A stretch of DNA of 64,000 nt from Alphaproteobacteria bacterium (GTDB lineage: Bacteria; Pseudomonadota; Alphaproteobacteria; UBA8366), in assembly GCA_028281325.1 (NCBI GenBank), contig JANQKC010000023.1, positions 1-64,000 on the forward strand. Reading direction: 5' to 3'. The notes beneath the pieces were generated by a model. The model made no database searches and was not told the origin of the DNA. It saw only the letters and a program-made list of their open reading frames with translations. Shown here piece after piece: positions 55,015 to 56,494 of the stretch (within the stretch, counting starts at the first letter, position 1; each line of letters starts with the position of its first letter). Position numbers and translations under genes: made by a program.

Positions 55015-55434
55015 TTAAGGCCGGCCGCCGGTCCAGAACAGATAGAGCGCGTAGAAACAGACCAGGACGAGCATTAGCCAGGTCGCGGTTTGCCCGACGA
55101 CGCGCCCAAAGGACCGCCCGGTCGTGCTGTATAGTCCTTGCGCATGCAGCGCCCGACCGACGAACAGCCCGGCGCCCAAGGCATGCACGGCAACCAGCGG
55201 TGCGCCCAGCATCTCCACGACCAACAACAGGACAAGGCCCAGTGCGACATATTCTGTATTGTTGGCGTGTACGCGTATGGTCTGCAGCAGCGCCGCGTCG
55301 TTGCCGTCGCCGAGATCGATGCGCTTCTTCGCGCGGTGGAGACTGACCCGGATTGCGAGAAAGACGGCAAGCAGGCCGTTTAGCCCCGCATAGAGCGCGG
55401 TGATCACGGGCAACGTGATTTGTACGGTTTGCAT
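55015..55434 (-). CDS. MAPEG-family membrane protein
   Basis: 139 residues with four hydrophobic helices. The family motif R-V-H-A-N-N-T-E-Y near 54-62 identifies MAPEG (membrane-associated eicosanoid/glutathione metabolism) proteins. Bacterial members may be glutathione-dependent transferases. Ends R-S-F-G-R-V-V-G-Q-T-A-T-W-L-M. The glutathione-binding Arg/Asn positions are present; the substrate is unknown. Confidence 0.88.
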   Translation of the reverse strand: MQTVQITLPVITALYAGLNGLLAVFLAIRVSLHRAKKRIDLGDGNDAALLQTIRVHANNTEYVALGLVLLLVVEMLGAPLVAVHALGAGLFVGRALHAQGLYSTTGRSFGRVVGQTATWLMLVLVCFYALYLFWTGGRP

Positions 55435-55637
55435 GGAGATTCCCCCGGTTTGAGTCGATTACCCCGGGGCGACTCTACGCCGTCGCACGGGGTGCCGCAT
55501 TCACCCTTTTGCGGGGGCGGCGAAGGCCTGCCATCGACCGATCCTTGGCGGTTGAGATGATTGAGGCGGTTTTGACGGCCATGGTACGGTTGCGCCTTCC
55601 GGCGCGCGTCGTGCGCCAGGTGAAAGGAGCGGATCCA

Positions 55638-56078
55638 ATGAAGGACAAACTCAAATCAAGCGGCCCGGCGCCCGGTTTTGCCGCATCGCCCAGCCATCGG
55701 GTCGACATGGAGCCGTGCCCGCGCCGCATCCGGGTGAAATGCGGTGACGAATTCATCGCGGACTCCACCGATGCGCTTCTCATGCGCGAGACCAATCACA
55801 AGGCCTGCTACTATTTCCCGCGCGCCGACATTCGCATGGATCTGATGGTGCGGACCGACCACACGACTTTTTGACCGTATAAGGGCCATGCGTCCTACTA
55901 CTCCGTGCGGGTGGGGAATCGGTTGGAAGAGAATGCGGCGTGGTCCTATGAGACCCCCTTCGACGAGGGGGAGTCCTATGCCGGTTATATCGCCTTCTAT
56001 TGGGACAAGGTGGACCGGTGGTTCGAGGATGACGAGGAAATCGTCGATCAGCCGACCACGTGTCCTGATCCCGGCTAG
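55638..56078 (+). CDS. DUF427-family protein, selenocysteine at codon 79 (in-frame UGA)
   Basis: 146 residues if the TGA at 55872-55874 is read as selenocysteine. Around it the frame reads D-H-T-T-F-U-P-Y-K-G-H-A-S-Y-Y-S-V; the DUF427 signature has T-T-H-C-P-Y-K-G-x-A-x-Y, so U replaces the invariant Cys. Upstream are Y-Y-F-P-R-A-D-I-R-M-D-L and downstream A-W-S-Y-E-T-P-F-D and Y-I-A-F-Y-W-D-K-V-D, all family motifs, in one frame. The ATG follows AAAGGAG. The TAG at 56076-56078 shares CTAG with the convergent arfB stop, which supports 56078 as the true end. DUF427 has no settled function; the Sec suggests thiol/selenol chemistry. Confidence 0.87.
55898..55914 (+). promoter_or_regulatory. candidate bacterial SECIS hairpin for UGA 55872-55874
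   Basis: CTACTC (55898-55903) and GGGTGG (55909-55914) form a 6-bp stem, two pairs being G-U, with apical loop CGTGC. The loop G is 30 bases after the UGA, and the tip CCGTGC is identical to that of the other candidate at 17346-17351. The stem is weak on its own, so the call needs folding software. Confidence 0.45.
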
Positions 56079-56494
56079 TCTTCGGTGACCTTTCGCCGGG
56101 TCTTTTTGATGTCGCCTTGACGGCGCTTGCTGTCGAGGCGTCGCCGTTTCGAGCCCTTGGTCGGTTTGGTCGCGCGCCGATGTTTCGGGCGCACGGCCGC
56201 TTTTCGGATCAGCGCCACCAACCGGTCCATGGCGTCCCGCCGGTTTTGTTCCTGGGTCCGGAACCGGTTGGCGGTGATGACGATCACGCCGTCCTTGGTC
56301 ATCCGCCGGCCCGCCAGCGGTTTTAAGCGCAGAAAGACGGCATTCGACAGCGATGGGCTTTTGCGCGCGTTGAACCGCAATTGAACGGCGCTTTCCGTCT
56401 TGTTTACCTTTTGGCCGCCGGACCCGGGCGAGCGGATGAAGCGCGCCTCGATTTCGGACTCATCGAGGCGGATGGACGAGGTTACCGGAATCAT
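56075..56494 (-). CDS. arfB: alternative ribosome-rescue factor ArfB (YaeJ-like peptidyl-tRNA hydrolase)
   Basis: 139 residues. The G-G-Q hydrolysis motif is in R-S-P-G-S-G-G-Q-K-V-N-K near 21-32, and the basic C-terminal tail (K-H-R-R-A-T-K-P-T-K-G-S-K-R-R-R) enters the mRNA channel of stalled ribosomes. It frees peptides on non-stop ribosomes. Convergent to the DUF427 gene with overlapping stops. Confidence 0.93.
   Translation of the reverse strand: MIPVTSSIRLDESEIEARFIRSPGSGGQKVNKTESAVQLRFNARKSPSLSNAVFLRLKPLAGRRMTKDGVIVITANRFRTQEQNRRDAMDRLVALIRKAAVRPKHRRATKPTKGSKRRRLDSKRRQGDIKKTRRKVTED

Follow-up and report, generated by a model that had tools for sequence, protein, structure and literature searches.

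An in-frame UGA at the conserved cysteine of DUF427 proteins points to a selenoprotein form of this family

We analyzed a gene for a DUF427 protein in a 64,000-nucleotide stretch of DNA from an alphaproteobacterial genome (contig JANQKC010000023.1 of assembly GCA_028281325.1, positions 1 to 64,000; hereafter the window), in which a single in-frame UGA stands at the position of the conserved cysteine. The gene at 55638 to 56078 very probably encodes a selenoprotein form of DUF427: the window genome carries the genes for selenocysteine (Sec) insertion, the same codon recurs in homologs from several bacterial lineages, and the sequence downstream of the UGA is under purifying selection. More broadly, we consider it likely that DUF427 is an unrecognized selenoprotein family in which Sec has replaced Cys at least twice, marking the catalytic or redox-sensing center of a beta-tent enzyme or sensor. 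To our knowledge, DUF427 has no assigned function.

The UGA-containing gene and its surroundings

The features of the locus are as follows.

55638 to 56078, plus strand: DUF427 (PF04248) gene with in-frame UGA, 146 aa if the UGA is read as Sec
55872 to 55874, plus strand: UGA codon 79, the putative Sec codon, at the conserved Cys column; TGA in 12 homologs
55623 to 55629, plus strand: Shine-Dalgarno-like AAAGGAG, 8 nt upstream of the ATG, recognized by inspection
56075 to 56494, minus strand: RF-1-domain protein (ArfB-like peptidyl-tRNA hydrolase), convergent; its stop codon overlaps that of the DUF427 gene in CTAG
55015 to 55434, minus strand: MAPEG-family membrane protein, divergent neighbor

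The DUF427 gene is a single frame of 146 codons whose sole internal stop is the TGA at codon 79, and with this TGA taken as a residue the product matches PF04248 over profile positions 1 to 93 of 93 (114.7 bits; cut-off, 22.1), bearing out the first-pass annotation, which had described one continuous frame with one internal TGA amid DUF427 motifs. The TGA sits where Cys is expected in the motif T-T-F-[C/U]-P-Y-K-G, as that annotation had claimed for the Cys of T-x-C-P-Y-K-G, and the ribosome binding site and the final stop shared with arfB that it reported are likewise present in the window genome. A Pfam scan of the window protein returned PF04248 as its sole match, with no sequence or profile similarity to MsrB.

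Around the copy in a genome of the same genus (G001), the PmbA gene is the sole recognized neighbor in common with the window, and the overlap with ArfB is therefore probably specific to the window genome. The genes next to the UGA-containing copies encode PmbA in the window's genus and, in genus g2, a pyridoxamine-phosphate-oxidase-like protein; those in Betaproteobacteria encode an amine oxidase and a protein of the glyoxalase fold, and in Dehalococcoidia the neighbor is MutL. Because neighbors differ in this way between lineages, and the neighbor comparison found no constant operon partner across them, the function of DUF427 is not readable from genomic context.

Recurrence of the UGA and selection downstream of it

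Whole-genome searches recovered TGA at the DUF427 Cys column in 12 genes, of which five belong to the window's family, three to Betaproteobacteria, two to Dehalococcoidia, and one to Lambdaproteobacteria; the twelfth is a divergent tandem copy. Within the family, a protein search of all six frames, with stops read through, added to the window copy that of G001 and those of G002, G006, and G009, which represent another genus; over the aligned domain, these four relatives share roughly 50% to 77% identity with the window protein (G001, 74% over the match). The remaining forms are L052, L053, and L104 (Betaproteobacteria), L054 and L114 (Dehalococcoidia), L058 (Lambdaproteobacteria), and the tandem copy L118 in G656. 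Scanning 85,000 species genomes at the DNA level for U-P-[YF]-K-G-x-A-[ST]-Y gave nine matches and contributed L052, L053, L054, and L058 as new UGA forms; L055 and L056 are the copies already known in G006 and G001, and L057, L059, and L060 were rejected as chance matches, their frames being full of other stops. Searches of relatives of known UGA forms yielded L104 (79% identical to L052), L114 (89% identical to L054), and L118. L053 (CAMDLH010000147.1) comes from a 6.4-Mb metagenome assembly titled "Bordetella parapertussis," a name that looks doubtful; the DUF427 copy closest to it comes from another environmental assembly of Betaproteobacteria.

Across 108 aligned homologous domains, the column holds Cys in 93, TGA in 12, Ser in 2, and Asp in 1, consistent with the earlier statement that this Cys is highly conserved. 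Internal in-frame stops occur in that column only and are TGA every time, never TAA or TAG (two further stops in the alignment, at query positions 135 and 141, are the natural C-terminus). The UGA form is rare; DUF427 was found in 79 of the 385 genomes of an even class sample (E ≤ 1e-25), and among these matches the window copy alone had an internal TGA. Two rows of this sample were flagged as having a TGA inside, G400 and G215; in both, the Cys is intact and the TGA is the ordinary stop that ends the gene. Many loci of the class sample encode tandem DUF427-DUF427 proteins; in the tandems L058 (L058:2218-3051) and L118 the UGA is in the first domain only, the second domain having Cys (L058) or Ser (L118).

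Most of the genomes involved are metagenome assemblies, which raises the question of whether an error of sequencing or assembly made the TGA from TGC or TGT. The 12 homologs are from separate assemblies, however, whose errors would not converge on one codon, and because G001, G002, G006, and G009 all carry TGA at the same codon, where the first-pass annotation had anticipated TGC or TGT under such an error, the TGA of the window is not a sequencing error; we regard the probability of this explanation as negligible.

We computed dN/dS by the Nei-Gojobori method separately before and after the TGA. Between the window and G001, the ratio was 0.163 after the TGA and 0.148 before it, and values after the TGA were 0.096 for G002 versus G009 and 0.165 for L054 versus L114; three further pairs had a low dS in this part, which makes their ratio uninformative. 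The half of DUF427 that lies 3' of the TGA is under purifying selection, and the initial claim that this half is not eroding, for which degraded relatives had been named as the contrary outcome, stands, the relatives being intact. These results bear on the reading of the TGA as a nonsense mutation that has left a decaying pseudogene or a truncated 78-aa protein. TGA is a stop by default, and the window genome also encodes a short Cys-type paralog (motif TVCPWKG; C14:274628-274885, L002:1480-1836, minus strand) that could make the UGA copy dispensable, but a decaying gene accords poorly with a TGA at the same codon in 12 homologs of several lineages, none with another internal stop, with the invariable choice of TGA over TAA and TAG, with purifying selection 3' of the codon in species pairs, and with the Sec machinery of the hosts (see below). 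We consider a nonsense mutation very unlikely, and a pseudogene or plain stop is for practical purposes excluded.

In a tree of 89 DUF427 domains (133 columns), many of whose forks are unresolved, the UGA forms require three changes, at least two of which are forced by supported branches. The alpha-, beta-, and lambdaproteobacterial UGA forms group weakly (94/78), and the Dehalococcoidia pair is nested among Cys forms with full support, its nearest relative being the Cys protein L115 (73% identical). The U/C pairs at this column that the first-pass annotation had proposed to look for in related genomes thus exist, including a close pair in Dehalococcoidia. As judged from the alignment and tree, this nesting has the form that Sec/Cys exchange takes in real selenoproteins, and Sec appears to have replaced Cys in at least two, and probably three, bacterial lineages.

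Selenocysteine machinery and a SECIS-like hairpin

The window genome (5.1 Mb, 99% complete) contains all four of the genes selA, selB, selC, and selD, for which the first-pass annotation had recommended a search. The selB gene (C24:189843-191732; 451.6 bits) is adjoined by selA (601 bits), and tRNA-Sec is encoded at C24:188565-188655 (76.7 bits; called by ARAGORN as tRNA-SeC with anticodon tca [UCA]). The selD gene (C17; 411.7 bits) is of the Sec type and carries its own in-frame TGA, giving the canonical GGGUGCK; beyond this codon lies a 6-bp hairpin (loop GUC at +17) of the same kind as the DUF427 hairpin. The window organism thus has at least one further selenoprotein gene and all needed Sec components. 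A second SelD-like domain (G000:C33:123515-124432, L062; 303.7 bits to TIGR00476) lies within an 819-codon open frame and is without UGA. We identified tRNA-Sec in 8 of 9 distinct UGA-host genomes tested, namely the window genome, G001, G002, G006, G009, and the genomes of L052, L053, L054, and L058; in G009 (84% complete), which has a UGA-containing DUF427 gene, selB and tRNA-Sec were not detected.

The presence of this machinery also bears on whether readthrough of the UGA inserts a different amino acid, such as Trp or one supplied by a near-cognate suppressor. Some bacteria do reassign UGA, and readthrough alone would likewise conserve the frame. The other window genes near DUF427 read normally with table 11, however, SelB and a dedicated tRNA-Sec are encoded in the genome, and of the 96 aligned positions in relatives that are not stops, 93 are Cys, which is what Sec/Cys exchange predicts; readthrough of this kind is extremely improbable.

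Two predicted RNA elements follow the putative Sec codon.

55882 to 55896, plus strand: small first stem between UGA and hairpin (55882 to 55886 with 55892 to 55896), role uncertain
55898 to 55914, plus strand: SECIS-like hairpin, 6-bp stem CTACTC/GGGTGG (55898 to 55903 with 55909 to 55914), loop CGUGC at 55904 to 55908

In the published bacterial SECIS (bSECIS) model, a loop of 3 to 9 nt with a G in its first two positions lies 16 to 37 nt after the UGA (PMC13188914). The loop of the window hairpin starts 29 nt after the UGA, in agreement with this geometry, and the best qualifying fold has an energy of -18.6 kcal/mol. All five alphaproteobacterial sequences have the hairpin in the same place with all pairs kept, including one two-sided change (C-G to U-A), and the 100% pairing falls to 45 to 60% once the partners are slid; with five sequences only, covariation did not beat column shuffles (144/500). 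The small first stem, predicted by folding, is also kept in five of five, one pair varying from G-C to G-U. Betaproteobacteria and Lambdaproteobacteria have in common a 7-bp hairpin with its loop at +33 (CGUGU/CGGGC), and L054 has a hairpin with its loop at +18. Quite apart from folding, the 14 codons after the UGA are unusually similar, with a nucleotide identity of 0.93 between the window and G001 (0.76 to 0.80 elsewhere) and of 0.98 between L052 and L053 (0.80 to 0.92 elsewhere).

Under a strict definition set after the sequences were seen (a stem of six or more contiguous pairs whose loop begins N0-1-G-[G/U]), 10 of 12 UGA genes have a hairpin, as do 8 of 77 Cys genes (p = 5e-7 by Fisher's test, for sequences that are related and not independent). 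It is absent in L114 and L118, the latter forming a bulged hairpin whose loop, GUAU, lies at +20. The bSECIS energy criterion by itself was set aside as SECIS evidence; it does not separate UGA genes (6/9) from Cys genes (15/30), and the 47-nt stretch after the UGA in the window is no more stable than shuffles (z = +0.92). The proposal from which we started, that this gene is a selenocysteine variant, is supported by the Sec genes, the recurrence of the TGA in homologs, and the selection on the downstream half.

Residue 79 and the beta-tent fold

An AlphaFold2 model built on 62 homologs (mean pLDDT, 93.8; a single-sequence model with pLDDT 35 was discarded) matches the DUF427 crystal structure 3DJM with a Z of 17.5 and an rmsd of 1.3 A over 113 of 113 residues (Foldseek E, 7e-11). 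The next structural matches are Mis18/yippee (Z about 9), the RIG-I C-terminal domain, and MSS4, with GFA at Z 2.6; an MsrB chain is missing from this list, which covers Foldseek's own candidates only. The window protein shares the full profile and fold of 3DJM/PF04248 (NTP_transf_9), but a putative Sec codon replaces the Cys of 3djm and of nearly all homologs. MsrB1 is a known Sec enzyme with the beta-tent fold. DUF427 has been placed in this fold together with MsrB, yippee/Mis18, CULT, GFA, and MSS4, but it is without significant sequence similarity to these relatives and without a zinc site (PMC4287342).

In the model, a long beta strand ends with residue 79, right before the P-Y-K-G turn. 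Glu51, Tyr59, Trp102, and Tyr104 are invariant in the DUF427 alignment, which contains no second conserved Cys; the conservation of Cys79, Lys82, Gly83, and partly Ala85 was imposed by sequence choice, although Cys79 is also by far the most frequent state in the count free of this bias. Repeated replacement of Cys by Sec is an accepted sign of a reactive residue, in most cases a catalytic one, and we infer a nucleophilic or redox role for Sec/Cys79, the first-pass annotation having suggested a catalytic nucleophile. SelB with Sec-tRNA would bind the hairpin and insert Sec at the UGA at 55872, and the product would be a 146-aa beta-tent protein with a selenol at residue 79, the reactive group taking part in nucleophilic or redox chemistry. 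As the family is without a second conserved Cys, turnover would need an external thiol, e.g., glutathione or thioredoxin, in a 1-Cys/1-Sec type mechanism. Alternatively, residue 79 may be an electrophile or oxidant sensor, a version that would fit the DUF427-cyclase fusions of relatives. In two genomes of the window's family, DUF427 precedes a class III adenylate/guanylate cyclase domain (PF00211; L030:1498-3105 in G005 and L032:1489-3060 in G003) within one protein, an arrangement that suggests that DUF427 can provide sensory input; similar fusions were seen by eye in L027, L040, and L044.

Sec could instead have been inserted at a structural or accessory Cys, in which case it would not reveal the chemistry of DUF427. 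Most selenocysteines of known function are reactive residues, and Cys79 is the sole conserved Cys, beside the four invariant residues named above, both of which argue against a structural role; the cyclase fusions, which suggest a sensor, speak for it. The beta-tent fold also occurs in many domains that are not enzymes, yippee/Mis18 and the RIG-I C-terminal domain among them, but DUF427 is without the zinc site of its relatives, so Cys79 is no zinc ligand of that kind (PMC4287342). We consider a structural role unlikely, albeit with far more weight than the alternatives discussed above, and favor a reactive residue 79.

The first-pass annotation was aware of no described DUF427 selenoprotein, and we found none in the main texts of the published literature searched. 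DUF427/PF04248 has no entry among the 119 prokaryotic selenoprotein families of a May 2026 review (PMC13188914) and is not reported in the available part of the deep-Sep study (PMC12013277), Table 3 included; NCBIfam models gave no match to the UGA proteins tested. With the known families (PMC13188914), the window gene has in common a UGA at a Cys column, a SECIS-like hairpin, and Sec machinery, but it differs in that its product is not of the thioredoxin fold, has no UxxC/CxxU partner, and carries the motif UPYK. On the sequence evidence, the putative new selenoprotein family consists of Sec variants of a protein family already known.

These findings have several implications. UGA-containing DUF427 genes risk annotation as truncated, and the bacterial selenoproteome would gain a non-thioredoxin fold. 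DUF427 is widespread and has a crystal structure. Mutation of C/U79 offers a single testable prediction, and activities could be compared between natural Sec and Cys counterparts that are about 73% identical. The recurrence of Sec singles out residue 79 as the likely chemical center of the uncharacterized DUF427 family.
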